Of a stretch of DNA of 64,000 bases, positions 3,401 to 61,966 are shown piece by piece. Numbering within the stretch: the stretch's first letter is position 1; each line of letters starts with the position of its first letter. This stretch comes from Falciphora oryzae (lineage: Eukaryota > Ascomycota > Sordariomycetes > Magnaporthales > Magnaporthaceae): positions 54,786 through 118,785 of the forward strand of contig JNVV01000055.1 in assembly GCA_000733355.1 (NCBI GenBank), given 5' to 3'. The notes under the pieces are model-generated. The model saw only the letters and a list, made by a program, of their open reading frames with translations, had not been told where the DNA came from and did not search any database. A program made the position numbers and the translations under genes.

Positions 3401-4939
3401 AATTTGCTTAAGAGGCTGACAGTAGTCAAGAAGCCCCGCCTGGCAGTACCTGACGTGAAATATACCGCACCGCACCGAGATACTGCGATGACGACTCGGC
3501 AGCAAGGAGCATCGTGCTTCCACCTAGCTGACGGTGACGAGTTGATCTTCCGGGGAAATCAGGTTTATGTCCCTGCAGACGAGGCCTTAAGGACCGAAAT
3601 CCTGAGACAGTTTTACGATTTCCCGGGAGCCGGTCACTGGGGCGTGGCCAAGACTCTAGATCTCATCCAGCGCTTCTTCTGGTGGGATGGAGTCAAGGGG
3701 GATGTTACGGCATATGTGGCATCGTGCCCTTAGTGCCAAGGGAAGGCGATTCATCGTCACAAGCCCTACGGCAAACTTGAACCCCTACTACCACCAAAAG
3801 ACGGGCAGCTTATGAAAGAGATCTCTTTGGACTGGGTGACCGGCCTACCTGAAAGCAGGACGGCGGGTGGTCAGGTCTTTAACGCGATTCTCGTCGTCGT
3901 GTGCCGATTAACCAAGTACGTGGTCCTTATCCCCATACGAGCTGACACAAGTGCAGGACAGTTCGCAGAGCTGTTTTTCGAGCGTATCGAATGCGTGTTC
4001 GGTACCCCCAAAAGCATCGTTAGCGATCGCGATAGCCGCATCACCAGTGGCTTTTGGGAAGAAGTGTGCAAGCACCAAATCATCAAAAGACGCATGTCGA
4101 CCGCCTACCATCCTCAAACGGACGGGCAGACGGAAGTCCTTAACCGCGTCATCGAAGACTACCTCCGCAGCTATTGCGCCGGTTCGGAAAACTCCTGGGC
4201 ATCACTGCTACCGTTAGCAGCTTACGCCTACAACAACAGCAGGAACTTCACTACAGGGCACTCGCCGTTCTATTTCCTGTACGGATCGGATTGCGAGATG
4301 CGGATTGATATCGCGGACAATATCCCTAAGGGGAGGGTACCCGCAGCAAAAAACCGCATCGAACGACTTCATGCATTGCGCAAGGAGCTTAAAGAGACGT
4401 TGCTGCAGGCACAGGAACGGTTAGCTAAGTACTACAACAGAAACCACATCCCTATGCAGTTCGCAGTTGGAGATTTGGTTAAGATGTCCACGAAAAACCT
4501 GCGTTTAAAGAACAAGAAGTTAGCACCTAGATGGATCGGTCCCTTCCGGATTACCGAACGCATAGGCCAGCAGGCCTACCGTTTGGCATTTCCCGAGCAT
4601 CACCGCCGTCTTCACGACGTCATTCCCGTGCAGAACCTCGAGCGGTATACTGCTAGAGAACAAGGAGACGAGGTGCCGCTACCTATGCCAGAGTACGAGG
4701 ACGACCAAGAGGAATGGGAGGTTGAAGAAGTACGAGATGAGGGACGGATCCGAGGCAAGAAGTACTACCTGGTCAAGTGGAAGGATTGGCCGGCAGAGTA
4801 CAACACTTGGGAACCCGAAGAACACCTTCGCGGCGCACCCACGAGAGTACGAGCCTTCCAGAGGGCCCGGAACAAGAGGAACCGAGAGATCCGCGAGCTC
4901 CAGGACGTGGAGCCAAGCAGTGAAGAAGGGGACACCTGA
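391..4939 (+). pseudogene. Element A pol: protease, RT, RNase H, integrase, chromodomain
   Basis: Read in one frame after removing the solo LTR at 1371-1867, this gives a retropepsin-like region (about 560-900), RT with an LPFGLTNAP box and YLDD catalytic motif (about 1180-2450), RNase H starting ETDASDFAMAG (about 2600), an integrase zinc-binding region (about 3600-3760), a DDE core (3820-4290) and a chromodomain near 4700-4850 (VEEVRDEGRIRGKKYYLVKW). The protease active site reads DTFA instead of D(S/T)GA. Three TAG codons interrupt it (2525, 3278, 3731), each one transition from CAG or TGG. The reading frame is otherwise intact. Confidence 0.92.
1371..1867 (+). repeat. Solo LTR inserted in the RT of element A
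   Basis: A 497-bp block runs from TGTAACACCC to CTGTTACA and is flanked by perfect 5-bp duplications ACCAT (1366-1370 and 1868-1872). Removing it with one ACCAT rejoins the RT frame (LNDITI to KNKAPL). Its ends and the internal string GCAAGCAATCGTTTTTCTG match the 3' LTR of element A, but most of the U3 differs. It is therefore a solo LTR of a related subfamily, left by LTR-LTR recombination. Confidence 0.93.
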
Positions 4940-8969: not shown

Positions 8970-9180
8970 TGTCATGGCACGGCCGGCCCTCACGGGCGCT
9001 TGGGCCATGGCTGCAAGGATGGCCCTAAAGTCACCTGACCTAGGACCATCGGATGCCATACTAATCTCTGTGCGCACGGGTGTCGCAACGCGCAATTGTT
9101 TTTACTTCCTTAGCTTTAGATCGTGACAATGATGAAGGGTATACTGCAGCCTTGCCTCGGTTCCTATCGTTCCCGTTACA
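8970..9180 (+). repeat. 5' LTR of element C
   Basis: A 211-bp LTR, TGTCATGG to CCCGTTACA, preceded by TSD GTTGG. It appears identical to the 3' LTR. AGCTTTAGAT at 9112-9121 is complementary to ATCTAAAGCT at 9183-9192, just after the LTR. Confidence 0.95.
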
Positions 9181-9182
9181 TT

Positions 9183-9192
9183 ATCTAAAGCT
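9183..9192 (+). other. Candidate self-priming primer-binding site of element C
   Basis: ATCTAAAGCT starts two bases after the 5' LTR and is the exact complement of LTR bases 9112-9121. There is no TGG start as expected for a tRNA-primed site. In Tf1 (established), the 5' end of the mRNA folds back on the primer-binding site and primes minus-strand synthesis; this layout fits. Ten base pairs is short, so this is weaker than the 15-bp case in B2. Confidence 0.5.
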
Positions 9193-9304
9193 CAAACAAC
9201 GATTTCACTGCCTGGGAAGGCCTCTAGAATATCCCACCGAAACAGATCCAACGAGCTTGAACGAACTGGGCGACTGGCCCTGCGACTACCCGAAAACGAC
9301 CACC

Positions 9305-11008
9305 ATGGCTATGTCCGCTGCCGAGCGCGAGGAGCGCGCTCAGGAAGCGAAGAAGCAAGTGCGCTTCGCCTTGGGCGACCTGGAGGGAGCTTTCCCCCGA
9401 TCCGACAAGCAGCGAGAATCGCTGCTGTCGACCCATCAGCAGAACACCCGTCAGAGTGCGGTGGGAGTTCCGCAGCCCGCGACTACGATCACGGTGGGCA
9501 ATGAGGATGATGACGACGAGGAGGAGGTCCCTCTGACCTACGAGCAGTACGAGAAGGAGGTTACCGACAAGCTGGACGGAACGAGATACACCCTCACCAG
9601 CAAGGACCTGGAGGACGACCTGCACTCTAAGGTCGACGACTTGGCCGCTTTGGCGGGCAAGTCGGGAAACAAGGACGAGGATGTGGCATTCTTCTTCCGG
9701 CCAGTGTCGGAGGACGGCAAAGCTGCCTGGCCCAACTTCAAGGGCCTGCTAACTCAGGGACAGTTCCAGGCAATGGTCAAGGACCACCCAGAGGCGATGT
9801 ACCGGGAGCTGAAGCTCCGTTCGATCGCCTGGATGGCTTCCTACACACAGGTCTTGGAGTTTCACGAGCTCGCCAAAGATCTCGATCGCACAGTCCAAGT
9901 GGTTCATTCGTGGGCAAAGTGCTTCGGCAAGGAAACCCGGGACCACACTTGCCAGACTCCGCTGCCGGCCCCGACGGATCCAGGAAACCAGCAACGCATT
10001 GACGAACTCATGGACCAAGTGGTGGCCCTGCAGGATACCATAGCGACCAAGAATGCCACGCTGGCTGATTGCGCGGAGCAACTGATGGCGCGACGCGGCC
10101 AGACCCCCGGCTCGAACAACTCTGACCAGGAGGGAGGACGCCAGAGGGCCAAAATGAAGGATCCCCCGGAGTTCCACGGAGACCTCGCCACGGACAAGGT
10201 GACCTTTGAGTATTGGCACCGACAGGTCAAGAACAAGATTCAAGTCGACGGAGGAAATTGGACCGACCCCGAGAAGTTCGCCTACGTGTTCGGCCGCCTG
10301 GCAGGCCGAGCGGCCTCAGTGCTGCTGCCCTACACCCGAGACACTCACCCCGATCGCCTCCGCACCTACGACGAGCTGATGAACCACCTCTGGGAGGAGC
10401 ACTATGATAAGAACGCGGAGGCCAAGGCCTACGCGGACTTCAAGGAGCTAGCCATGAAGGCCGGAGACAAGTTCCCCGATTTCAAGAACGACTTTGTGCG
10501 TCTCGCTGGGGAATGCAAGGTCCCCCGGACGAACTGGAAGCGCGAGATCTACGACCGCCTCACGCCTGGCCTTCGGACTCAAGTCATCCGAGAGTACACC
10601 AACCAGAGCGTTACGTTCGAGGAGTTCTGTCGTCAGGCACAGGAGTTCTCCTTCCAGTATGAGCGAGTGCGTAAGGAGAAGGCCGCGACCGAGGGCAAGA
10701 AGAAAGCAACACAGGGAGGCAGCTCGGCACCTGCCCCCAAGCCTCGTGAGACTCCCAACAAGCCTTCGCAGACCCCTGCCGCAAATGCCGCCACTCGCCT
10801 GCCTCGCGAGGAAATGGCCCGCCTCCTGAAGGAGGGACGCTGCTTCAACTGCAAGGAGACCGGACATCGCACCCGCGAGTGCCCTTCGCGCGACAAGAAC
10901 ACCAACGAGGCCCGAATCAACGAGATCCTGGCCAAGCACTACCCGCCCAAGTCAAACAAGGAGCGCCTTGATGAGGGCAGCGACAGCGAGGCCGAGTCGA
11001 AAAACTGA
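9305..11008 (+). CDS. Element C Gag, intact
   Basis: The 567-aa Gag starts at an ATG in good context (CACCATGG). It has an acidic stretch (DDDDEEE), a central retrotransposon gag (capsid) region around the WTDPEKFAYVFGRL motif, a basic/proline-rich linker and one CCHC zinc knuckle (CFNCKETGHRTREC) near the C-terminus. It forms the virus-like particle and binds RNA. The frame is open upstream, but the gag ATG at 9305 is the natural start. It ends at TGA with AAA AAC TGA, and pol continues in the -1 frame, so a -1 slip here is plausible but not proven. Confidence 0.88.
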   Translation: MAMSAAEREERAQEAKKQVRFALGDLEGAFPRSDKQRESLLSTHQQNTRQSAVGVPQPATTITVGNEDDDDEEEVPLTYEQYEKEVTDKLDGTRYTLTSKDLEDDLHSKVDDLAALAGKSGNKDEDVAFFFRPVSEDGKAAWPNFKGLLTQGQFQAMVKDHPEAMYRELKLRSIAWMASYTQVLEFHELAKDLDRTVQVVHSWAKCFGKETRDHTCQTPLPAPTDPGNQQRIDELMDQVVALQDTIATKNATLADCAEQLMARRGQTPGSNNSDQEGGRQRAKMKDPPEFHGDLATDKVTFEYWHRQVKNKIQVDGGNWTDPEKFAYVFGRLAGRAASVLLPYTRDTHPDRLRTYDELMNHLWEEHYDKNAEAKAYADFKELAMKAGDKFPDFKNDFVRLAGECKVPRTNWKREIYDRLTPGLRTQVIREYTNQSVTFEEFCRQAQEFSFQYERVRKEKAATEGKKKATQGGSSAPAPKPRETPNKPSQTPAANAATRLPREEMARLLKEGRCFNCKETGHRTRECPSRDKNTNEARINEILAKHYPPKSNKERLDEGSDSEAESKN

Positions 11009-14000
11009 CGACCCTGGGGAAAGTGGACTCCCTCCCAGGAAACGTGTCGACATGGCGGAAAACTATAAAAGAAGGAGAGTTGCCTTTTAACTTTCTCCAT
11101 AGATACCTGGGCGGCAGCTCGTTCACGCTGCCCAGCACCATATCGTTCAATGGACTCTCTCTTTCCACACAAAGCCTAATTGACACGGGAGCAAATGGTT
11201 ACCTTTTCGTGAACCTACGCACAGCAAAAAAAGTGAGGAAGCTACTTAAAGCTGCCCGCTTCGATGATTTTGTCCCACAGACAGTCGGAGGTTACAGCGG
11301 AGAGGGAGCACAAGCGGTGGACGTGGCGGTGATCGCGCATTTCCGGATCCAACGCCGAACGTTCCACAACGTCCCCCTGCTGGTTTTGGATATGAAGCAA
11401 GATCTGATAGTCGGATTGAAGTTTTTGGAGAGTTACGATATTTTCCCCGACTGTCGGCGACGGAGACTTTTGTTTGATGACGACGCCAACCCTCCGACCC
11501 CCGAGCCACAAAACATCACGATGGACAATTCTCCCACGCCAACCCGCTGCCCACAAGGGTCTTACGATAAAGAGGTTCGCCGGAGAGAGGCCTTGATGGA
11601 AGCGGAAGATAAGAGGAGAAGAGACGGCAGGAATGCGCTGTCCGAGGTGCGGCGACACATTGACAGGCTGGAAGCGATCACCCGGGAACCTTTAACCAGC
11701 AAAAAGCCCCCGCTGAAGACACCACCAACAAGGTTGATGCCCCGACTGACCGCCGGTCCGAGGCCAAGATCGCGATCACGGCCGGAACGAGACGGAGGGC
11801 TTCAAGCCTTGACACAGGCCCTGTCCCCGACTGAGGACCTCATTTCCGCCGCGGGAAAGCCGAGCCCCGGTAAAGCGCAAGACCAGCCGAGGGTTCAAAT
11901 CCAAGAAGACGCGCACGGAAAGTACACCCTGAAGAGAGACGCCGTGGGTTGGTACAAGGACCGCGCGGTCAATACCGCCTTTATCGGTGCAGTGGGCCTG
12001 ATGCAAATCGCCACGCGGCATGAAGCTCCCCTGGCAGTGACCAGCCTATTCGAAATCAACCGACTCATCGAGGGCAAGAGGGATAACCAGGAGGATCGAG
12101 AGCTGATGCCGCACGATGAAGAAGAGCTCCGACAACGAGCAAGGATGCTGGTGCCCCCCGAATACCACGGAATGCTGGACGTATTCAGCAAGGCGGAATC
12201 CGACCAACTCTCACCGCTCCGCCCTGAAGTCGACCATCAAATCGAACTAAAGGAGGGACGCGACGCCGGCGAGCTGAGTTACTCCCCGCTGTACAAAATG
12301 TCCGCCGAAAAGTTGGAGGCGTGTCGGCAATACATCACCGACAATCTGCACAAAGGGTTTATCGAGGCCAGCAGCGCATCCTTTGCCGCACCCATCCTGT
12401 TTGCGAGGAAAGCGGACGGTAGTCTACGACTGTGCGTGGACTACAGAAAGCTCAATGCGATAACCAAAAAGGACGTATATCCGTTGCCCCTGATCGAGGA
12501 GACTTTGGCTAGGATATCGGGCGCCAAGTTTTTCACCAAAATAGATATCCGCCAAACCTTCCACAGGATCAGGATGAAGCCGGAAGCCAGGGAATTGACG
12601 ACGTTCCGCACACGCTACGGGACCTTTAAGTATAACGTAATGCCTTTTGGGCTTACGAATGGCCCGGCGACGTTCCAAAGGTTTATCAACAACACCCTGA
12701 TGGAATATTTGGACGACTTCTGCTCTGCCTATATCGACGATATCATTATCTGGTCGTCGACTTTGGAGCAGCACCGAAAGCACGTGTCTAAGGTGCTGCG
12801 GAGGCTACAGGAGGCCGGTCTTCAAGCCGACTTGAAGAAATGCGAGTTCCATGTCGAAGAAACGAAATTTTTGGGCTTTATCATCGGAGTGTCCGGAGTC
12901 AAAGTTGACCCTGAGAAGATCTCGGTGGTGAAAAACTGGAAGGCTCCAGAGTCTTTGAAAGGGGTGCAATCTTTTCTTGGCTTTTGCAATTTCTATCGCA
13001 AGTTCGTCCCAGAATACAGCCGAATCGCCAAACCTTTGACCAGCTTGACGAGAAAAGGCGAAGCGTTTGAATAGACGAAGCCGAGGGCAGAGTCCTTTGA
13101 AGAGCTTAAGCGCCGGCTACTGCACGCCCCGGTGCTCAAGCATTACGAACAAGACCGGCAGACCCGGGTGGAAACGGATGCCTCCGACGGGGTTCTGGCA
13201 GGCGTGCTGTCCCAGGAGCACGAGGATGGGTGGCACCCGACAGCGTTCTTCTCCGAAACGATGCACGGGGCCGAACTCAACTATCCCATCCACGACAAGG
13301 AGCTGCTGGCAGTGGTGCGAGCGCTTAAGCACTGGAGAGCGGAACTCGTGGGGTTGCAAGCCAAAGAGTTCCTCGTCATCACAGACCACCAGGCTTTGGA
13401 GTACTTCGGAACAAAGAGACACTTAAACGCCAGGCAGGCCGCTTGGTCGGACCTATTCTCCCAGTACCGCTTCGAAATTACTTATCGTCCTAGATCCGAG
13501 AATGCTGCGGCGGACGCGCTGACGAAAAAGACGGAGGAGACAAGGCTCCAGAAGGAAAAGAAGGAAGCTGAGCGGTACCGAGCGATATTTGCCCCGGCAC
13601 CACGGGAAGGCTCGGAAAACCTGCTGTTCGTATTAGGGACACCCACCTCGGAGAAGCCGGAACCGGAGAAGCTGTCCGAAATGATCTTGTCGGACCGACT
13701 GCTGAGAGCAAACCTTGGGGCGCCTTCTTTGGAAAAGTACCGAGTCAAGGCCAGAAAGGGACAGAAGGGGTGGACTCTGCTCAGCGATTCGGAAAAGCCA
13801 GACCATCAATATGTCCTCTACAAGGACAGGCTAGTCGTCCCCATCCTGGAAAATGCAACATGGCCAGCGAAGCTTATCGCGGAAGCACACGGCCGAATCA
13901 CGGCCGCACACCCGGGACGCAACAAAACGAGGAGGCTCGTCAGTGGGAAGTACTGGTGGCCCGGATTGAGTGCAGACGTTGATCAGTTCGTGGCCAACTG

Positions 14001-15297
14001 CAGCTGCAGATCCGCGAAGGTACCCAGGGACAAAACGCCCGGGTTGCTGCACCCCCTCCCTCCCCCCATGCGCGCCTGGCAGCATATGGTCGTCGACTTT
14101 AAAAGCATACCTAAGGATAGGAAGGGGTACGACAACGCACTGGTGATAGTGGACTGCTTGACCAAGCGTTCATAGACGATCCCCTGCGACACAACGGTTA
14201 CAGGGTCAGCAGCGGCGAAGCTATACTACAAGGGACCATACCGGGTGTACGGGTTACCCCTAACCGTCGGATCCGATCGTGGCCCCCAGTTCGTCTCCGA
14301 TTTCACCAACGAGTTGTCGAAGATTTTGGGCATAGATTGGAGGCTGTCCTCGTCCGGCCACTCCCAATCAGCAGGACAAGCCGAAATCATGAACCAATAC
14401 TTGGACCAGCGTCTACGCTTGTTCGTGAACCATTTTCAGGATAACTGGTCAACCTTTTTGCCCGCCTTCGACCTGGTTCAGGCGACACTCCCGCACGAGT
14501 CGCTAGGGGGTATGTCACCTTTCGAGGTGTCGATGGGCTTCCCGTACTCTCCGCACTGGGATTGGGCCCGTCGGACGACGCTCAAAGGGTTGACGGCACA
14601 GGAGAAGATGTCACGAGGAGATGCGCAAAAGGCGGCGAAGAAGTTGTTGGAATTTAGCGAGGAGGCCCGGAAGTTGTTACTCCGGGCTCAGGAGAAGACA
14701 ACCATCCAAGCCAACAAACATCGTCGAGTTCCGGACTTCGGGGTGGGCGACGAAGTCCTAATCATCAAAAAGAACTGGGCGACGGACAGGCCCAGTGATA
14801 AGCTCGACTTCCCGCTAACCAGAAGGCCATACCGGATCGTGGCCCTCAAGGGTCACTCATATGAGCTGGAGGTCCCCCAAGGATGGAGAGGGACGAGGGT
14901 TTTCCATGCGGATAGGTTGAGGCGATTCCCAAACAACCCCTTGCCGGGACAAGAGCTGGAGCGACCCGAGTCGGAGACTGTCAACGGCGAGGAGGAATGG
15001 GAGCTGGAGACCATCCTGTCATCGAGGCTGTACTACGGACGCCTCCAATACCAAGTGCAGTGGCGAGGCTGGGACCCCGACCCCAACTTTTACGACGCCG
15101 CTGGTTTCAAGAACGCGGCCATCTCGCTCAAAGCATACCACGAGGAGTATCCGGACAAGCCAGGCCCGCCGAAGCGACTGCAGATTTGGCTGGAGACCGC
15201 GGAAAAGGACGCCTTCGCAGAAGATCACGCCGATGACAACAAACCAGCCGACGGCGGGATCAAGCAGGGGTTGCGACGGAGGATGCCGAGGCGTTGA
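11009..15297 (+). pseudogene. Element C pol, interrupted by two TAG codons
   Basis: Domains in order: retropepsin with LIDTGANGYLFVN (about 11180), a charged linker, RT with MPFGLTNGPATF and YIDD (about 12360-13050), RNase H (about 13130-13520, ETDASDG), integrase zinc region and core (about 13860-14540), and a C-terminal chromodomain-like segment (about 14990-15160, YQVQWRGWDPDPNFYDAAGF). TAG at 13072 replaces the usual tryptophan (FEWT in relatives), fitting TGG to TAG. TAG at 14173 breaks the integrase. No frameshift is seen. Confidence 0.92.
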
Positions 15298-20761: not shown

Positions 20762-20905
20762 TGTCAAAGCAGTCGAGGGCAGAGATATTGGAGTAGCAGG
20801 AAGATGATATTCGGAGTAGGTTGGAGGCCGGAGGCCTGGCCCTGCAGAGATTTGGGATATCTCTGTGCGGGATCCACCTTGTGGAGCCTCCACCCTTATC
20901 TGACG
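20762..20905 (-). repeat. 3' LTR of element D, visible part
   Basis: Matches 28138-28281 with two G/A differences. The remaining ~59 bp of the 203-bp LTR fall in the run of N. Confidence 0.93.
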
Positions 20906-21257
20906 NNNNNNNNNNNNNNNNNNNNNNNNNNNNNNNNNNNNNNNNNNNNNNNNNNNNNNNNNNNNNNNNNNNNNNNNNNNNNNNNNNNNNNNNNNNNNNN
21001 NNNNNNNNNNNNNNNNNNNNNNNNNNNNNNNNNNNNNNNNNNNNNNNNNNNNNNNNNNNNNNNNNNNNNNNNNNNNNNNNNNNNNNNNNNNNNNNNNNNN
21101 NNNNNNNNNNNNNNNNNNNNNNNNNNNNNNNNNNNNNNNNNNNNNNNNNNNNNNNNNNNNNNNNNNNNNNNNNNNNNNNNNNNNNNNNNNNNNNNNNNNN
21201 NNNNNNNNNNNNNNNNNNNNNNNNNNNNNNNNNNNNNNNNNNNNNNNNNNNNNNNNN
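20906..21257. other. Assembly gap (352 N)
   Basis: A run of N inside element D, where one LTR copy meets pol. A repeat-induced assembly break is likely. Any protein translated through it is meaningless. Confidence 0.99.
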
Positions 21258-24200
21258 CAGGGAGCTTGAATCCGAAGAGAAACTCGTGCGGTGAGCAGTC
21301 CGTGGCCGACGTGGTCGAGTTGTTGATATCCCACTGAAGTGCAGGGAGAATGTCGACCCAGGCGGAGTGCTCCTGAGCATGGAAGCGGATGGCCAATTCC
21401 ACCAGTTGGTTTTTCCTCTCGGATTGGCCATCTGCTTGGGGATGGTAGGCCGTGGTCATGGCAAGCTTGGTCCCAAAGCCTTTCCAAAGGGTCTGCCAAA
21501 AGGTCCCGGTAAATTTGGCATCCCTATCGGAGATGATGACGCGGGGACAGGGCCAATCAGCTATAAGGAAGTGCCGTAACAGCAGCGAGGCCCAATGCTT
21601 TGCACCATAGGTATCGTGCCCGGGGATCAGGATAGTCCGCTTGGACGTTTTGTCGGTAACGGTAAGGAGGGCGTTAAAGGAGTCGTGGGTGCTGAGCTGC
21701 CAAGGGGTATTCGCCGACGGTACGACTGGGAGTGCAGTAACAAAGTCCATAGTCAACACGCTCATGGGTTCAGTTGGGGCCTGGATGGGCTGGAGCGTGC
21801 CGATGGGCTTCTGGTTGTTGGTTTGGTTCATGCCGCAGGTGTGACAGTTTTTGATATACTGGTCGATCTGGCGCCTTTTGGACCGGAAGTGCACACCGGC
21901 GAGGGCGTCTGTCATGCGTTAGCGGCCGAAGTGGTGCTTGTGATCATGGGCCTCCTCCAGGAAGGTCTTCACCATAGGGAACGGAATCACAAGTCGCTCG
22001 ATTCCGTCATTGTCCCTGTTGTAAAGCAGGCCATCGACAACGCGGAAGGGGTGCCCGGCTTTGGAAGCATTCAGCACGTCCTCGTGCTCAGGGGGTGCTT
22101 TGCCGGGGCGAGGCGTGGCGAGCTCCGTAATCAACTTGTAGAACACTGGGTCCTCCTTGTAGTGCTTGATAAACTGGAGGCGCATGCTATCCTCCATAAC
22201 AGCTTCGGCTACCTGCAGGACGTGCTCGACGTCGTCCTCGTCATGTCGGTCGTCGGGGCCCTTTTCCCAAAGTGAGTCCAGGACGGGCTCGTCGGGCCTG
22301 GCACGCGTCTCAGCATCCCCTGTGGTGGCTGGAAGGCGAGATAATGCGTCAGGAACAAGGTTGAGGCGTCCTGGTACGTGGTAGACATCTAGGGGATAGG
22401 CGCTAAGGTAGATGGACGCGTTGATTAGGCGTCGGTTGGCGCGGTCCGTTGAGACGGTGTTAAGACAGGTCCTGTTGACGATGCCGGAGGTTGCGTCGTG
22501 GTCTGTGAGAACAACGATTTTGGGCTGGTTGTTGGAGTGAAGTAGGGTGCGCAGCCTCTTGCACGACCACACAAGACAGGCTACCTCTAACTCGGAGGGT
22601 CCGTAATTCAACTCAGGGGCCGTAAGGCAACGACTTAAAAACATGACGGGCTGGATGACGGTGGCCGGGATCACGGTCTTTGGCTTCCAGACATAGTCGG
22701 GTTGGGTCTGGAAGACCATGACTCCAAAGCCTCGCTCAAAGGATCCGTCGATTTGAAAGTAGAGAGTCCGGTCCGGATCATGGTGGTGCAGCCTCATGTG
22801 CTTGCAGATGTGGTCTTGCAGGGCCTCAAAGGACTTGAGCTCGTCGGCAGTCGGGGTGAACTTGGTGCTTTTCGCGTAGTGCTGGCGTTAACCCCCTTCT
22901 GTTTTTCCCTGCTTGCGGCCCTCAGCTAGCAGAAGGACCTTGCGTCTCTGGAGAGGCTCGGCGATTTTGGCGTAGTAGGGAATCATTGATCGGAGGAAGC
23001 CAGTGCTACCGAGATAGGTTTCTAGTGATTTAAGGGTATCAGGGAAAGCGAGGTCGCGGAAGCCTTGCACCCGAGATTCGGTGGTTGAAAGCCCGAGGGC
23101 GTCGACGTAAAATCCAAGGAGCTCGATGTTCGGGTAGCCAACGAAGCTCTTCTCGGGGGAGATTGCAATGCCTTTGCCCTGGAAGAGTCCAAAAATCTCC
23201 TTCAAATGCTTTTGGTGGTCCTGGAAGTTGTCCGAAAAGATGATGATGTCGTCGACGAAGCAGCGGCAAAAGTGTTTATAAGGACGAAGCAGGTTATCCA
23301 TAAAGCGTTGAACGTAGGCGGGTGAGTTCCGGTAACCCATAAGGGCGACGCGCGAGCGTTCGAAACCTCTGTGGCTTAAGATCGTAAGCCGGTCTCGATG
23401 CTCGGGGTATACGAGGAACTGGAAGAAGAAGGCGGTGGCATCGACAGCGGTGGCATACTTCTTGCCTCTCAATGCGTCAATAACGTCCTGTTAAAAAGGA
23501 AAGGGGTACGCGTCCGGAACTGAAACTTTGTTAAGCTGGCGGAAGTCGACGACAACACGACTCTTGGGTTGACCGTGAACCATGCGCCATACAACGAAGC
23601 AAGGGAACGCGAAGGGTGTAGCGTGGTTAACTGGCTCTAAGCGATCCTGTTCGTTGAGTTTGTCGTGCGTTTTGTCGATGACGTCCTTATCCTTGCGAGC
23701 GACAGGATAGGGTCGGTTAAGTAGCTTGGCGCCCTGGTTCTGCCATCCCTCAACGAAAGGGATCTTCATCTGTTCGTCCTCGGGGATATCGATCGGTCCC
23801 CTGTCGCGCCAGATGTCTGCGCGTTCACAAATATTCTTAAGGATCCGGGCTTCCGTTGGGTCTCCGTTGTACACGTAGACCTTGTCCTTGGTCAAAATGT
23901 AGGGTGCCTTCTCAAAGGCACGGATATTGCTCCTCTTTTCCGGGACACGGGGAAAAGACTCCGGGAGGTTGAGCATAGGGTCTCCCAACGGGATGTTAAC
24001 GTCCGGTCCAGATCCAGGCTCTTTGGGAGGCTTCTTTGGCACTGCGGGCATCCCAGCCTCTTCTCCTCCCAGTGTCATATTGTAGATTTAATCAGATAGT
24101 GAGTTAGAGTTTAACGTCACTGTCTTCTTTTTGCCTTGGCCGGAGCCAGCGATGCTAATCACCTCGGGGATGATCGGCTTAGGACCGGTATCCTAAGGAG

Positions 24201-35727: not shown

Positions 35728-38086
35728 ATGTCGTCACACGAAGAATACCTAGATCTCGGAGCCGACCTCTCAACAGCAGATTCGTCGGACCCCAACCCCA
35801 TGCGCAAACGGATCGAGCGCGCTATTCGGCCCTCTGGGTCCGAGGTAGTCGGGAGCACGGCTCCATTCATAGGCATTACAGGCCTTCCAAGCCCAAAGGC
35901 CGAAAGAGCGCCGCCTGGCTTGCCGCGTCTCGATAGCCGCGACCACGGACCCAGCAGTTGGGTTACAGGGTTAAGGGGGCCTGAGGGCAGCTCTGAGTCT
36001 CTCTGTAGCCGATGCTCAGGACTGGGATATTCCCACTTTCGAGTCGGCCTCATTCACGACGTCGGCGAGCCCCGAGACTGCGCGCTCTGCCGCATGCTGC
36101 GAGCGGAAGCTTCGGCGCGAAGCCCGAGCTTCTGCGCGCCCTTGCAATTCAAGATCGTGGGGAGTGACCCGTATTGCTCGGGACATGAAAGCGGTCGTTT
36201 CCGATATGCTGCGACTAGCAGTACTACCACTGGCACCAGCGGTAAGTGCGCATTCCTGCTTTGCTTGGGTGTTGGCAGTTACTTGCAAGAATACTCCCCT
36301 TCAGTACACACAGCGAGCACTACGCCGTCCGGAAATTCACACGCGCTCCCGCCGTACCGTGGCGTTGTCTCGGTCGTCTCGCAGGAGATGCTCGCGGGGA
36401 CATTGTGCTCCCGGTCATGCACGTCCGGAAGACGGACAGTGCCGATGCCAACCGCGTCGACCCCAGCGCCGATACCCTCCCGGGCGAGGACCTGCGCAGC
36501 AAGCAGCAGCTACCTGCCGTGCACGGCATCGTGACGCAGTGGGCCGACCTGCGTCTTGCCCGGCGGTGGCTGCGTGGCTGTCTGCATCCCAATTTGGAAA
36601 GCTCACACCTCCACTTGGCCGACATGTTTAAGGGGGAGACGCTGCAGCTGAGCCCCGAGACGCGCTTCGTCGATGTGGAGAGCCACCGGCTGGTGCGATA
36701 CGGAGACATGGGGGATGGCACCATCCCGGCATACGCGGCGCTGAGCCGCGTCTGGGGAGACCCGAGCCGGAGCCACCAGCTCCGGACTCTCAGGTCCAAC
36801 CTGGCCAGCTTCGGGAAACGCCTCCCTCCTTCCCACTCGTCGACAGGCGACGGGAATACCTCCACTACAAACCGGCTCCCAAACACGATACGGGACGCCA
36901 TGGCCGTGGCGCACGAGCTGGGGTTCCGATACCTCTGGGTCGACGCGCTCTGCATCGTCCAAGACGACGGGCGCGACCAGGGGATCCAGATCGAGCGGAT
37001 GAGCGTGATATACCGCCAAGCGCTGGTCACCATCGTCAACAGCGGCTGGAGCGATTCCGACTCGGGGATCCCGGACATCTCGATCCGGCGGACCACACCT
37101 GGCCTCGGCGCCGAGGTCACGCTTCCCAGCGGCGTCGCAGTGGGGCTGTCGCGCGTCGTCAGCCACGTCGAGGACATCCCGTACCGCACGAGGTGCTGGA
37201 CGCTGCAGGAGCAGCTGCTGTCGAAGCGGCGGCTGGAGTTCACCGGAGCCGCATGCTGTACGTCTGCGAGGAGGGGTCGCAGGTGGAGAGCGGCGACCCG
37301 CCGGCCGATCGCCCGTTTCAGCGAGCCTCGGAGGATTTCCAAATGGCGACGACGCGGGGCAGGAAAACATATTTGGGAGGGATAACCAAACTCCTGGGGC
37401 CGCAGGTAATAAGGACCGAGACGCCGGTAGAGCCTCTGGAGAGCTCCGACGTCGTCTGGCGCGAGGTAAAGCTCGAATCCTCGGCGAGGAGCCTCACCAT
37501 GCAAAAGGACCGGCTAGCGGTCATCTTGGGGGTCACGCGGGAGGTGGGCCGCGCTAGAGGCTCGCGGTTCGAGTGCGGACACAACTGCCAGAAGCTCTAC
37601 CACGAACTGCTCTGGACGCCCAGGCCCGGCACGGCCATGACGGACGAGTGTGGTGCCTTTGCCTCGTGGAGCTGGCTCCGGCGGTGGCCGATCGCCATCC
37701 CGCATGCGTACAAACCTGTCGGAGGCTGCAGGCTGGGCCTGAGACGACGCGGGCTGGATCTCGACGACGAAGGAGCCTGGGAACTCGCCATCGATGCGCC
37801 CATGCTCCGCCTGTCGGGAGGCGTGCCACCCGGTCCGCTATCTGTCCACTACGATGACGCCTCCCGCCCACATGACCAGGACCCCGTCGAATGCGTTGCG
37901 GTGGCGCACGTGGGTGAAGGGTACCTTAAGGCTGACGGCGGCTTCGAGGCAACGGGACCTTTCCGCGTGGGCGTGCTGCTACTACAGAAGGCGAAAGACG
38001 GTCCGCATTACTGCCGTGTAGGCGTTGGCTTTGCAGAGAGGGGCATCTGTGAGGGGGCTGAGAGAAGAGCGATGGCTTGTTGGTAG
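35728..38086 (+). pseudogene. HET-domain (heterokaryon incompatibility) protein, apparent frameshift
   Basis: The start ATG at 35728 (CCGCCATGTCG) begins a 171-codon exon with a cysteine-rich segment (LCSRCSGLGY, CALC). A likely phase-1 intron at 36242-36384 (GTAAGT, TCTCGCAG) joins it to the HET frame. The HET domain runs from YAALSRVWG (about 36730) through YLWVDALCIVQDD (about 36930) to CWTLQEQLLSKRRLEF (about 37240). The C-terminal half (DRLAVILGVTRE, FASWSW) is in another frame from about 37245 to the TAG at 38084, so a one-base indel or assembly error is likely. I found no intron that fixes it. HET domains trigger cell death after non-self recognition. Confidence 0.8.
36242..36384 (+). 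other. Predicted intron of the HET gene
   Basis: GTAAGT donor and pyrimidine-rich TCTCGCAG acceptor. The length of 143 bp restores the frame from the cysteine-rich exon to the HET domain. Shorter AG choices within 80 bp do not give the right frame. Confidence 0.55.
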
Positions 38087-44914: not shown

Positions 44915-45667
44915 TTATTTGGCCGCCGTGCCTGGGTCCTCCTTGGCAACACCAAGCCTGTCCATCCACCAGCCGCGCAGAGGTCCCTCTACCCACTTGA
45001 CAAGCTCAACCAAAACCCCAAACAGACGGTACAGAGAAGCCAAGCAGTCAGTCCCTCCAATATCAACAGGCCCCACCATCTGGATCTGCTGGCCGCGGTC
45101 ACAGGCAAAGTAGATGCTCCAAGAATGCCCCCGGCAGAGGAGCGGCAAGGTGATCAGGGGGCTTTGGAAACCCAAATCCTGGACGCGGCGGTACCAGGCG
45201 GCCGTCCAAACGCCGAGCTGGGTGGTGCCCTCCTCGGCGGCGACGAAGCTTTTGGCTTCGATGCTGACCCCGATGGGGTTGATAGTTAAAGGTTTGTAAA
45301 GGGATTGGTTGATGCATTGCGACCGTTCATGCTGGCCCCTTAGGGTTTCGATAATCTCCCGGTACAAGGCCTCGTCGCAGGGACGCTCTCTGTGAATGTC
45401 GAGGGTTAGGGCGTAATCGACCATCTTGCCGCCCACAACCGCATTTTGGTTTATCGCCGGGAGCCACTGGCTGGCGATGCCCGCCCCCATGATCGGCTCA
45501 CAGACGACGCCGCCGCGAGGGGCGGAACGAGCTGCGAGCTGAAGCAAAGGAAAGTGCACAGCATTGTTCCAAGCCAGCTCGCCGCGTCCCCGCTCCTCGG
45601 CCTCTAGGGCTTCGTTTTCGATCTCGCACAGGGCGTCCAACTGCTTCCGGGCAAGCTTCGGGCTCGT

Positions 45668-45705
<38 letters not shown>

Positions 45706-46312
45706 CGTCGTCGTCGTCCTTTTGGAACCAGCTGCTTGGCCACTCGGCACTGTCAGGCACCTCTGCCAGGACGATGTCGCGTACGGCAGCCGGTATGAAG
45801 CCTTGGTACCAAACCGCGATGCGCCTGATGCGGGAGTACAAGTCGCGGGCGTCGTCGGGAAGATGGGCGAGCAGGTCGCCACGGGGTTTCGTGAACTTGA
45901 CGGGCCTGGTGAGGAGGAACAAGGCCGGGGAGTGCTTGACGGGGCTCGTGGACCGTGTCGTCCGTGAGCGGTACTGCCCGGAGCTCACGCCTGTGATTGT
46001 TGTGCCCAACCTCGATCTGGCTCCCGAAGTCGACGGCTGCAGGCTCGGTATCGCAAGGTCGTCGAGTTGGCGAAAGGGCAGAGGAGCGACTGGGTGATGC
46101 TGCTGCTGCTGGCCGTCGGTCTCACCCGCGGGCCCTGGGGTCTCTTGGCCACCACCGTCGTCGTCGGACCGGGCTAGGCGCCTCTTTTTGGGGGAGGAGG
46201 GCGCGGCTGGAGTGGGGTGTTTCTCGGGGCTTTTTGGTTGGTCGACGGTTTCAAGCCACCGGGTGATTCGGCAGAAATTACCAGCCCATGTGTCGTTGTT
46301 ATAATTCTCCAT
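44915..46312 (-). CDS. PD-(D/E)XK nuclease-like protein, 465 aa, intact
   Basis: Single exon starting at MENYNNDTWAGNF (ATG at 46312); the pseudogene copy at 48706 supports this start. A low-complexity N-terminus (KKRRL, poly-Q) is followed by STSPVK (121-126), a helical region, an Asp/Gly tract (199-215) coded by pure GTC/CCG triplets, then the fold core: AWNNAVHFPLL (247-257), MVDYAL with Asp299, GVSIEAKS with Glu352 and Lys354, and QLGVWTAAW (Gln365). These match the D...ExK...Q pattern of the PD-(D/E)XK superfamily and the fungal nuclease-like group within it. Such genes are often multi-copy and accessory; the substrate is unknown. All catalytic positions are present. Confidence 0.85.
45663..45720 (-). 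repeat. Trinucleotide tract coding Asp/Gly run
   Basis: About twelve CCG followed by GTC units (plus strand), encoding DDDDD then about twelve Gly. The paralogue at 48706 has only KDDGGTG here, so the tract has expanded. Confidence 0.9.
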
Positions 46313-46536
46313 GGCGGAGAGAGAGAGAGAGAGAGAGTGGAAAGGAGAGGCGGAAACTAAAATAATAAGGCAGTTTTGTTTGACCTTGTTGTCTTCTTCC
46401 AAGTTTGGGCACGCGCCTGGCTGGCGATTTGTTTCCGTGCTGGATGTCGTGGAACATTACTGATAGTCCGTGCATTCGAGTGTGTATGCAACAGTTGAAC
46501 TACATGCACCAACCAGCTGTCCGTCAAACACCTCTG

Positions 46537-57106: not shown

Positions 57107-60100
57107 TTATGGTGTTGCTGCAATGCAGCTGTATAAGTAGCCGGTTGCTCGCCAAGTAACATAGCGCCAAAAATCGGTATTAAGGTACGAGCCTGTTGCA
57201 TCAAACGATACACTATCGCTATGCACCTCAAACGTTGCAACGCACGCGCCCGTCGCCGCATCCCAAAGCTTAACGGTTTTATCGCCGGAGCCCGACGCGA
57301 GCTGCCGGCCGTCGGGCGAAAAAGCGACCGACCGAACCCAGCCGCTATGCCCTTCGAACGTTGCAACGCACGCGCCCGTCGCCGCGTCCCAAAGCTTGAC
57401 GGTTCCATCGTCAGAGCCCGACGCGAGCTGCCGGCCGTCGGGCGAAAAAGCGACCGACCGAACCCAGCCGCTATGCCCTTCGAACGTTGCAACGCACGCG
57501 CCCGTCGCCGCGTCCCAAAGCTTGACGGTTCCATCGTCAGAGCCCGACGCGAGCTGCCGGCCGTCGGGCGAAAAAGCGACCGACCGAACCCAGCCGCCAT
57601 GCTTTTCGAACGTTGCAACGCACGCGCCCGTCGCCACGTCCCAAAGCTTAACGGTCCCGTCGCTAAAGCCCAACGCCAGCTGCCGGCCGTTGGGCGAAAA
57701 AGCGACCGACCGAACCCCGCCGCTATGCCTTTTAAACGTTGCAACGCACGCGCCCGTCGCCGCATCCCAAAGCTTAACGGTTTTATCGCCGGAACCCGAC
57801 GCGAACTGCCGGCCGTCGGGCGAAAAAGCGACCGACCGAACCCAGCCGCTATGCCCTTCGAACGTTGCAACGCACGCGCCCGTCGCCGCGTCCCAAAGCT
57901 TGACGGTTCCATCGTCAGAGCCCGACGCGAGCTGCCGGCCGTCGGGCGAAAAAGCGACCGACCGAACCCAGCCGCTATGCCCTTCGAACGTTGCAACGCA
58001 CGCGCCCGTCGCCGCGTCCCAAAGCTTAACGGTCCCGTCGTCGAAGCCGTTAGGGCCGCCGGAGCCCGACGCCAGCTGCCGGCCGTCGGGCGAAAAAGCG
58101 ACCGACCGAACCTCGCCGCTATGCCCTTCGAACGTTGCAACGCACACGCCCGTCGCTGCGTCCCAAAGCTTGACGGTTTTATCCTCGGAGCCCGACGCCA
58201 GCTGCCGGCCGTCGGGCGAGAAAGCGACCGACCAGACCTCGCCGCCATGCCCTTCGAGCGTTGCAAGACAAGAACCCCAATGTTCCTCCATTTTTGGCTC
58301 GATAACCAGCTTTGTTAGTTTCTCCTTCGCAAATATTTGTCGAGTCAGGCTCCGTTCGGGGCTGAATATAAGCGCGGAGCCATAGGCCTGTAGAGGTGCT
58401 TTTTCGATGGCAACCCGATGCAACAAGACCAATAGCAGCATATCTTGAACCAGACGGCATAGATCGGGGCTCCCTGTTGTACCCTAAGCACCTTTAGTGT
58501 TAGAACTGCGAAATAGACAATTTAGATTACAAAGACGCACCTGGAGTAGGCTTTGCAGATTTTGTACTGCAAGGATTCCTTTCGGAACAGCTCGAGCAAA
58601 GGTCAGTGCCTCAAGCCAGTTGAGGAACTTTTCGCGTAGGAAACCATTGACGGTTTGTACATCATCTGTGCTTATCTGCGCATCGACCAGATGATCAACC
58701 CAGTACACGCACGAGTATCGTGCTGGACCTAAGGGGTCTGGGCTGGGCGGTGTCACATCTTCCACCGTGGTTCCGGGATGTGACAGGCGGTAGATATCAC
58801 GCTGTAGTGTTCGAGATAGCAGCTGACGCGATTTCGAAAAGAGGGCGTGGTGGACTCCTTCGATTTTGTGAGGAAAGACCGCAGAAAAGTTGGCTTTGCG
58901 CGAAGGGTCGCACAGGAAGTCCTTGGCTGACTGGTGGACGAAGTGTATGGTGCGGTCTCTGATGGCCAGAAAGGACCCGCAGAGCCCGACATAGTATTCT
59001 AGGGCACTGGTATCCAGAGGCTCGTCTTTTTGGAAGGGATTGTCGACAAAGGACCTTAGCTCATCTAGCGTGAGAGGCTGGTATACCGTCGATGCGGTGG
59101 ACAGAATCTGCAGGCACAGGGCCACGTCGTCGGCATCTTCCAAGCCGCAGATGGTGTGCATCATTCGGCCGTACAGAGCGTCTAGGCCAGGGGGGAAGCC
59201 GTGTAGCGTTTTGATGGCCTTGAAACTGGGGACACCTTCCAGGCGGCGACAGACGAGGGCTACCCACAGGAACGTGTCTCTGGCGTTGGATAAGAGGTAT
59301 TCTGTGACTTGGGCGGTTGTCTGCGTGTTGTAGCACTTTTGCTTTGCTAGCGCCTGCGCCTTCTTTCGTACGTATAGCTGGACGGCAGCGGATACGGAAG
59401 CGGCGTTCAGCTCGAGGCTGAGTGGGACTTTATGTTCGGCCTGTGCAAGCCTTTCCTCGATCTCGGGCCAGTTCCTGCTGGAAACGACCCATTTGGCACC
59501 GGACGCGGCTGAGCCGAACGCAATCAGGCCCAAAAGCTCGGAGCGACCAGCTTGGCACTCGTCGAGGGCGTCAACCACCAGATACGGTGATTGCAGAGCG
59601 GGGTCGCCCAGGATGTTCAGAAAGATCTCGCGGAGAGCGACCCAGGCATTGACGTCTTCGAAAAGCTGTCTGTCTGCGTGGCCGTACTTCTTCTGCACGT
59701 GCGAAATAAGGGACGGCTGCTGATCGACGAACATGTAGATCAAGCCGCGCAAAACTGCCGTAGCGCTGTTGATACGCTTGTCGGTTGCTTGACAGAAGAA
59801 ATAGGACAAGTGGCCGCCTTCTTTCTCCAGCTCGTTGATGATGCCGCACAACAGCATGGTCTTGCCTTTGCCGGGGTCCCCCTTGACCCACAGCAGTCTG
59901 TTCTGGTTGTCCTGCCGCCATCCGAGGAATTCGTCGTTGTCGAGGACCCACTGGTAGACATCGTCCAGCAGGCCCCCCTTGTCCCCCTCGATCCGTTCCT
60001 TGTCGTCTCTTGGGTCGGTGGTCCGCAAAGCTGCGAGGCAGGCTGGGGGTTCGCCGGTCTGATGGTTGGTAACATTGCCCTGTTGCAGGATGGCACCGGG

Positions 60101-60349
60101 ACCTAATGTGTATGAACCGCTGTAGGAAGACCCTTGCTGAATAATCTGAGCGCTCTGTTCCTCTGGAACGCCGGTGCCCTCTAGCGTGTTGGCTCTCATG
60201 CGCGTCGCTAAGTTGTCCTCGTCATCTTTGGCAAGGCGGCGCCGTTTCTCTTCTCTCGATGGCCCAGCCTCCTGCTCCTCGGCTTTGCGCCGATTCCCAG
60301 AGGCGGCTGTATCTCCCACGGTTTGCTGACTCGGTCGATCGGGGGCCAT
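57107..60349 (-). CDS. NLR-type STAND protein: motif, NACHT, WD40 (NWD family), 1061 aa
   Basis: Exons 60349-58541 and 58483-57107, joined by a 57-bp phase-0 intron. Residues 73-96 form a short Gly/Gln motif (Gly73, Tyr76, Ala86, Gln90-Gly91-Asn92) just before CLAALRTTDPRDDKERIE, the usual lead-in to NACHT in this family. Walker A is GDPGKGKT (157-164), Walker B YLVVDALDE (256-264). From about residue 675 there are eight WD40 repeats of 42 residues and a degenerate ninth. Family members (HET-E, HNWD, NWD2 of Podospora) sense ligands with the WD40 part and oligomerise through NACHT to trigger cell death. The whole reading frame appears intact. It lies 752 bp downstream of, and on the same strand as, the SesA-like gene. 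Confidence 0.92.
57230..58270 (-). repeat. 126-bp WD40 coding repeats
   Basis: Eight tandem units, nearly identical in DNA (GACGGCCGGCAGCTCGCGTC recurs with small changes). One unit carries a small extra insert (GGPNGFD, about 58045). Differences cluster in the blade-surface segment after ATF (EGHSGWV, EGHSGEV, KRHSGGV, EKHGGWV). Confidence 0.95.
58484..58540 (-). other. Intron of the NLR gene
   Basis: On the minus strand: donor GTGCGT, branch site TTCTAAC, acceptor GCTTAG, 57 bp, phase 0. The TAG that seems to end the NACHT frame is the acceptor itself. Splicing joins SLLQ to GTTGSPDLCRLVQDM. Confidence 0.8.
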
Positions 60350-61101
60350 GTCGGGACGCGGAGCGCCTTGATTGCAGACTGAGAAGATCGCTTGTGAGGA
60401 TCCGAGGATTGGACATTAGCCACTTGGTAGGGAGCGAGGGGCTGCTGCAATCGACGCAGGTTGCTAACACGAAGACCTAAGGCATTGAATCAAGCCCGCA
60501 GGCTTCTCGGTGTCTTGGAGATAGGTGATGACTCCGCTAGTTGGCGGGTGGATGAAGGTAAAACTTCTTGGGCGTTGCCCCGACTTGGAAAAAAGCGAGG
60601 AAGGACGAGGGACAACAAGGTCCGGAGAGGGCAGCTGCGGGGCGCGGTACTCTATCGGGCGAAAAGTTGGTCAGGCTGCGCTCAGCCCCTTAGCGCCCGC
60701 ACAAATCTCAGCCCAACGCTAACCTGCCCAAGAACCAGAACTGTGTGCGCCTCAAATATGCACATCACAGCGCGTAGACAGAGGGCATCTGGATTGGGCT
60801 ATTTTCTGGTACGCGCCCCACAGCCGGCGTCGCGACTCCGAGCAGAGGGCACCTGACGTCGGGTTCCACACCGCGCTGCCAGGCCGCTGCCACCTTTGCA
60901 TGAAAGCTTGACCGTGCTGCTTGACCCGGCTGCACTCAGCGTCGGGATGTGATTGGGCAGGCAGAGAAATTAATGAGCACTGTTTCGGACGCTGTACAGA
61001 ACCCCGACTAAGGTCAATCCTCCAAAAAGGCAATCGCCCAGGTGTGCGGCACAAGATTTCATTGGCAGACTATTTGGAGCAGCCTCCTCGCACGAACAGA
61101 A
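60350..61101 (-). promoter_or_regulatory. Spacer between effector-like gene and NLR
   Basis: 752 bp between the SesA-like stop and the NLR start. It must hold the terminator of the first and promoter of the second. No clear TATA box or known site was recognised. Confidence 0.4.
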
Positions 61102-61966
61102 CTACTGCTGCTCAAGCCCATCCCCTGCTCCGGCCTCATCCTTAATTCCCAGTCCATCGATCTCATCACCCTGCGTCAGTTTTGCGTCCTCGGTCCCCTC
61201 GATTTCCCCCTCAAACGCCGACCCTTCCTGCTCAATATCCCCCTCAATGATACCCCTGATCTTGTTGCCCTGGTTTGCTGAAGCGTTGCCCCCGAGTTTA
61301 ATTTTGCTCCGAAATGTGGACCCTGTCTGCTTAACCCGAAGACGTGGGGACGGCGAACAGCTTCCGAGCCGGGTCCCCAGCGCGTGTTCGGCCCTGCAAC
61401 GGCCGTCAGCAAAGTTCCTACACAATCCACACGGCCAATACTCACCTTGATCCATCACCTGATCTCGTGCTGGTGGCGTCCAGGCTTGAACTGGCGGTAG
61501 TGGCTTTGGTGACGACAGAAGTGGCGATTCTCTCCATGTTGATTCGGAGCGCTTGTTGGTCCTCGGCACTTCCAGAGACGACCATAAGAGTGAGGTGCTC
61601 CGTCGATTTTTGCGCGTCCATAAAGGGGACGTCCAGCTTCCGCGTCAAGCTACCGCTCATTATGGCCCACTGCTGTAGCGCTCGACGCGACTGTTGGAAT
61701 TTCGTCAGGATCTTCTTGGCTTTGTCAATGTTGTCCAAGATGGCGGCCAGGCAGGTCTTGATTTCGGTGGCCTGTAGTGCCCCGTTCTGATCGATGAGCG
61801 CCGTGACAACTTCGAGTTCCTTTATCTGGCGCTCGTACTGCTGGAGTTTGTCCGGCCCGCCCCGGATTCGGGCACGAACGTCACTGAACCCGGACGAGAT
61901 CGTGATGGCGTAGCCCAGCAGTTGGGCCACTGCCGCGCAGGCGCCGAGTGCTTCCAGCCCCGACAT
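61102..61966 (-). CDS. SesA-like protein with two C-terminal amyloid-type motifs, 270 aa
   Basis: Exon 1 is 61966-61446, exon 2 61393-61102; the 52-bp intron (GTGAGT, GCTGAC branch, TTGCAG) is phase 2. Residues 1-160 start MSGLEALGACAAVAQLLGY and are helical; with YERQIKELEVVTALIDQN they resemble the SesA N-terminal domain of fungal STAND proteins (likely, from memory of the family). Residues 198-221 and 231-254 are two repeats in identical register: Gly, Phe, Ile, Ala, Gln-Gly-(Asn/Asp), Ile, Gly at fixed spacing, 33 residues apart. The neighbouring NLR has one copy of the motif. The layout predicts an effector activated by amyloid templating. Confidence 0.82.
61394..61445 (-). other. Intron of the SesA-like gene
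   Basis: 52 bp, donor GTGAGT, branch GCTGAC, acceptor TTGCAG. Without splicing the frame ends at TGA directly in the donor, and the motif-bearing exon is lost. Confidence 0.88.

Follow-up and report, generated by a model that had tools for sequence, protein, structure and literature searches.

A candidate receptor–effector gene pair of Falciphora oryzae linked by a shared putative amyloid-type motif

What connects a small gene with a helical predicted product to the NOD-like receptor (NLR) gene beside it, and what might the two encode together? The question arises in a 64,000-nucleotide stretch of the Falciphora oryzae genome (JNVV01000055.1), the whole of which is called the window here and supplies all positions given without a contig name. 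In it a putative effector gene and a receptor gene occupy adjacent positions on the minus strand; the effector gene comes first, and 752 bases separate the two coding regions. Their products share a 24-residue motif, of which the effector has two copies, both in its C-terminal half, and the receptor one, ahead of its NACHT domain. The two genes probably form a receptor/effector module of the NWD2/HET-S kind, in which the signal would pass by amyloid templating. While the logic of NWD2/HET-S is known, the motif was not placed in any known family by the patterns and profiles tried.

The two effector copies, r1 (residues 198–221; 61252–61323, minus strand) and r2 (residues 231–254; 61153–61224, minus strand), and the receptor copy, r0 (NLR residues 73–96; 60062–60133, minus strand), align without gaps. 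A preliminary description of this locus had named these copies and the correspondences between them, all of which were confirmed: Gly73/198/231, an aromatic residue at 76/201/234, Ala86/211/244, Gln90/215/248, Gly91/216/249, and Asn or Asp at 92/217/250. In a three-way ungapped comparison scored with BLOSUM62, the best score was 113, a value reached by none of 2000 shuffles that kept composition (mean 38.3, standard deviation 9.1, maximum 86). The best three-way register begins four residues earlier (194/227/69) and adds a conserved Gln two residues ahead of the first Gly; the resulting 28-residue copies of r1, r2, and r0 span 61252–61335, 61153–61236, and 60062–60145. The likeness is confined to the coding frame (pair scores of 47, 36, and 30, versus 28, −7, and 5, and 19, 9, and −16, in the other two frames), and the copies share 44–52% DNA identity; it is therefore not the product of a recent DNA duplication.

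Short motifs can also resemble one another by chance, or through low-complexity bias of two disordered tails, in which case the genes would be unrelated neighbors. The motif spans just 24–28 residues, and its pairwise likeness is weaker than the three-way likeness, being reached by 4 of 2000 shuffles for r1 and r2 and by 12 of 2000 for effector and NLR. Further, the genome searched (50.2 Mb, 123 contigs) holds at least 151 NPHP3_N matches, which lessens the surprise of finding an NLR next door. However, no shuffle equaled the three copies taken together, and the pairing of charges described below adds to their likeness. A profile scan of 90 loci (282,861 bases; L001–L090, the pair itself included twice), 80 of which surround NPHP3_N matches or lie just ahead of them, the matches being drawn from the top of the list of at least 151, likewise recovered the three copies at 64–66 and nothing else above 20.0, against 20.3 for a reversed control, although such a scan would overlook a motif interrupted by an intron. 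A coincidence of this sort is very improbable.

The distribution of charge among the three copies is uneven. Over the 28-residue register, r1 (residues 194–221) has six charged residues, all basic, each of which lies opposite an acidic residue of r2, with no like pairs; r2 has 11 charged residues and a net charge of −9, and r0 has none at all. Six opposite pairs were reached by 64 of 100,000 permutations, and when tail spacings of 20–49 were compared, the motif spacing of 33 yielded the most opposite pairs (eight, with two like). Because BLOSUM62 gives Lys/Glu a mildly positive score, the motif and charge tests are not wholly independent. The complementarity of r1 and r2, together with the uncharged r0, agrees with a parallel stacking of the copies as rungs. 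Opposite charges in r1 and r2 and charge-poor receptor motifs are also reported in the survey of HRAM motifs, where both are attributed to parallel in-register stacking (PMC4518210). The charge sites given in that survey are positions 4, 6, 7, 11, 12, and 13 (PMC4518210), and among the six pairs here only position 7 coincides; the principle agrees, whereas the places differ.

The receptor has the architecture of a fungal NACHT-WD40 NLR. Pfam scans recover an NTPase domain (NPHP3_N at 59474–59956, minus strand, E 5.9e-35 on the exon, with an overlapping NACHT match at E 4.2e-11) and then WD40 repeats (PF00400, in eight stretches), and give no match within the first 116 residues, which are thus without a recognized N-terminal domain. 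Between 57217 and 58266 the WD40-coding units are 126 bp long and 92% matched (Tandem Repeats Finder), which points to recent homogenization of the part of the NLR that would act as its sensor. The receptor model encodes 1061 residues in two minus-strand exons: the first (58541–60349) carries the N-terminus with the motif and the NPHP3_N/NACHT region, and the second (57107–58483) the WD40 repeats, on either side of a predicted 57-nucleotide intron (58484–58540) with GTGCGT, CTAAC, and CTTAG. The effector model, on the same strand, encodes 270 residues, also in two exons. Exon 1 (61446–61966) covers residues 1–173 and two bases of codon 174, and holds a helical, perhaps remotely SesA-like domain; exon 2 (61102–61393, including the stop) encodes the C-terminal tail with both motif repeats. 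Its predicted intron (52 nucleotides, 61394–61445) begins with the donor GTGAGT, ends with the acceptor TTGCAG, and has a branch-like CTGAC ahead of the latter. Both models are drawn from sequence only, with predicted splice sites; alternative splice combinations also leave the frames open in both genes, and the models were picked by consensus sites. With adjacent genes, an NLR lacking a recognized N-terminal domain beside a small protein whose domain precedes the motif, two effector repeats, and one NLR copy, the earlier proposal of a receptor/effector pair with the two-plus-one layout of HET-S holds.

How such a pair might work is suggested by NWD2/HET-S, for which NLR oligomerization, amyloid templating, and release of the effector domain are described (PMC5485727, PMC7889193, PMC12881547). 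By analogy, the WD40 part of the NLR would sense a ligand, upon which the NACHT part would oligomerize; the clustered r0 copies could then fold into beta-arch rungs and act as a nucleus. These rungs may template r1 and r2 of the neighboring effector, stacked in register with basic r1 on acidic r2, and the stacking would activate the N-terminal domain of the effector, helical and SesA-like, which probably acts on membranes to cause cell death, in the service of self-defense or allorecognition. Being neutral, r0 could stack on other r0 copies of the NLR oligomer as well as on r1 or r2, while r1 would repel r1 and r2 would repel r2, which would oblige the two to alternate.

Several observations weigh against this interpretation. 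The hydrophobic positions of the HRAM pattern (5, 8, 10, 16, and 18) are filled in only three, two, and three of five cases in r1, r2, and r0, and the tail after r2 is without the aromatics frequent in HRAM proteins. The NLR copy begins at residue 73, whereas most HRAM and PP motifs are reported at residues 5–9 (PMC9815663). The Pfam SesA family (PF17107) gives no match in exon 1 or in the whole effector up to E 10. AlphaFold predicts an all-helical effector domain, though with low confidence (mean predicted local distance difference test, pLDDT, 59.5), and the tail model, at pLDDT 41.0, is unusable. Additionally, whole-genome protein queries recovered no further copy of the motif.

The poor hydrophobic core bears most directly on the supposition of amyloid folding. 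It is conceivable that the motif is a homotypic, non-amyloid element through which r0 binds r1–r2, by way of a small beta-arch or peptide contact, recruiting the effector one for one and without self-propagation. The common motif and the in-register charges demonstrate pairing, not amyloid; and besides a core poorer than those of HRAMs, there are abundant charged residues in r1 (6 of 28) and r2 (11 of 28). Yet the characterized fungal pairs of such a layout use amyloid templating, as described in PMC5485727, and the Gly-, Gln-, and Asn-rich features of a beta-arch are retained here. One-for-one recruitment is, on balance, unlikely, and a templating module continues to be the favored reading.

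The nature of the effector domain is a separate matter, and one on which the preliminary description fared less evenly, since it had proposed a SesA-like domain: profile likeness bears this out weakly, and Pfam does not. A profile of five SesA-type domains from the same genome scores exon 1 at 27.1 bits (best of 4000 shuffles, 12.3); without its closest relative, on contig C51, the profile scores 13.5 bits (best of 4000 shuffles, 9.6). A comparison by hhalign gave a probability of 14% with E 0.0019, which was counted against SesA likeness. Searched against the genome, exon 1 has, apart from itself, one match (C51:251514–251687, E 0.09), overlapping a SesA match (PF17107, 27.9 bits) that is interrupted by one in-frame stop. 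That SesA-like region stands directly before an NLR match (C51:250492–251025; together L011, C51:250492–251687), and its stop may mark an intron or a decayed gene. Two fold searches with the low-confidence domain model gave generic helical bundles, with no HeLo or MLKL entry among the matches listed, which speaks neither for nor against such a fold. In PDB sequence searches the tail had no match and the domain none better than E 0.16, and NCBIfam had no match for the domain. The best Pfam matches of the domain, to Thioesterase (E 0.0015) and HrpF, fell below cut-offs and were taken as chance. The helical domain may be a remote relative of SesA.

Such remoteness could also indicate that the pair is real but that its killer function has been lost, the effector now serving as a decoy or a regulator, or being a degenerate copy in which the motif has outlived a working domain. 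In favor of such a loss are the distance of the domain from Pfam SesA, its only remote likeness to the SesA-type domains of its own genome, and the pieces of retroelements present in the same window. Against this, both genes have open frames and consensus introns, and loss of the killing function is quite improbable.

A module signaling by amyloid templating would not be isolated in this genome. NACHT_sigma (PF17106) matches occur at six places, three at each of two loci, C102:42437–44588 and C71:114969–116955 (L093, L094, L044, L040). At both loci an NLR and a Pfam-clear SesA protein lie head to head, and the sigma matches fall in the N-terminus of the NLR, in the C-terminus of the SesA protein, and in a third open frame of about 400 residues. 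Clusters of a known amyloid kind, with SesA effectors, therefore exist in the genome, and the window pair is separate from them; the two clusters show amyloid-type signaling to be at home in this genome. Other loci with effector-like domains were also encountered. A HeLo-domain frame (99.8 bits; C117:17184–17810, plus strand) and an NLR match (C117:15660–16166, minus strand) are arranged head to head, and upstream of the NLR match no motif of the window kind was found. Elsewhere, in an NLR to which a SesA domain (97.1 bits; L047:433–900, C2:644331–644798) is fused, SesA is followed, before NACHT, by a stretch rich in Gly, Asn, and Phe that resembles, by eye, an internal amyloid-type motif. As to lineage, an exon for ribosomal protein uL3 in this genome shows about 94% identity (211 of 225 residues) to chain 7r81_E1, with 8oo0 and 7olc next; these are ribosomes of Neurospora and Chaetomium, and the match indicates that the genome is probably that of a Sordariomycete.

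The remainder of the window is of mixed content. A HET-domain open frame (PF06985, E 3.5e-28; 36246–37385, plus strand) lies about 20 kb from the pair, and a 513-residue open frame with a PDDEXK_12 nuclease-type match (E 1.4e-45) occupies 44918–46456 on the minus strand. Gene pieces like those of long terminal repeat retroelements, with zinc knuckle, protease, reverse transcriptase, RNase H, integrase, and chromo domains, are present at 3734–4936 and 9065–14172 on the plus strand and 20899–22887 on the minus strand. Rfam has nothing at its gathering score between 56000 and 64000.

To which family, then, does the motif belong? Consensus patterns were taken from PMC3321046, PMC9815663, and PMC12261475, and comprise the published patterns, not the authors' own profiles. 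For sigma, there is no PF17106 match in the pair, and the patterns GxGxQFN and GGTQNINT agree at two of five and three of eight positions, no better than in shuffles. As a positive control, the sigma NLR at C102 agrees at five of five and six of eight positions (0 of 500 shuffles). Agreement is limited to three of five and four of eight in the SesA protein of the same cluster, and the pattern test is accordingly not fully sensitive. The PP, PUASM, and GDQN patterns agree at two of five, three of seven, and three and four of 13 positions, again no better than in shuffles. With pattern matches at shuffle level, assignment to sigma, PP, PUASM, or GDQN was rejected. The motif was also not found in the literature searched, a search that left subscription papers, figures, and supplements outside its scope.

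The comparison with HRAMs is closer. The HRAM layout, as the survey gives it, is of two effector copies and one NLR copy, with a linker of 6–18 residues (PMC4518210). In the window pair there are two repeats at a spacing of 33, a linker of 12 if the repeats are taken as 21 residues, a single NLR copy, and the invariant Gly in all three copies. The residue-level pattern, taken from the text of the survey, logos excluded, and with the invariant Gly set as position 19, departs further. Position 5 is hydrophobic in HRAMs and in none of the three copies here, whose aromatic residue is at position 4; at position 15 HRAMs prefer a positive charge, and one of the three copies has it; and position 18 is Gln in all three, a Gln ahead of the Gly being a mark of HRAM4 (PMC4518210). 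PF11558, which represents HET-s 218–289, has no match in either protein in Pfam scans up to E 10, nor any above cut-off in the genome; this is a weak test, because PF11558 matches only 38 of 155 published HRAM proteins and misses the other 117 (PMC4518210). The motif was not assigned to HRAM because its core differs from the HRAM pattern, though layout and charges fit, and the earlier view that it is not the motif of HET-s stands. Most likely it is a divergent HRAM-like motif or a new one.

It is tempting, though we would lean against it for now, to regard the motif as a further family of fungal amyloid signaling motifs beside HRAM, sigma, PP, PUASM, and GDQN, with a charge code of a basic rung, an acidic rung, and an uncharged template rung. 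Under such a code the effector repeats could form stacks only by alternating with each other or by joining the neutral receptor copy; the effector would be restrained until the receptor seeds it, and would be insulated from both sigma systems that the cell contains. Signaling amyloids are short and diverge past the reach of profile searches, which obscures their real diversity. The pair therefore raises two questions: how much motif drift is compatible with templating, and whether the charges of the rungs decide which partners seed one another.

Among known systems, the sigma clusters (of the sesA/sesB/het-eN kind; PF17106) also place a SesA-type effector beside an NLR with a common motif. Sigma effectors, however, have one motif region where the effector here has two repeats, and the sigma patterns and profile miss the window motif. 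The GDQN pair of Fusarium oxysporum, as described in PMC12261475, likewise combines an NLR with a SesA-domain protein through a motif outside HRAM, sigma, PP, and PUASM, but its effector matches PF17107, whereas the effector here does not. The closest parallel in layout is with NWD2/HET-S of Podospora anserina and the HRAM1–5 systems (PMC3321046, PMC4518210), in which, as here, an NLR and a small effector are adjacent, with two C-terminal repeats in the effector and a single N-terminal copy in the NLR. The likeness extends to the invariant Gly followed by Asn or Asp, to the opposite charges of r1 and r2, and to the charge-poor copy in the NLR.

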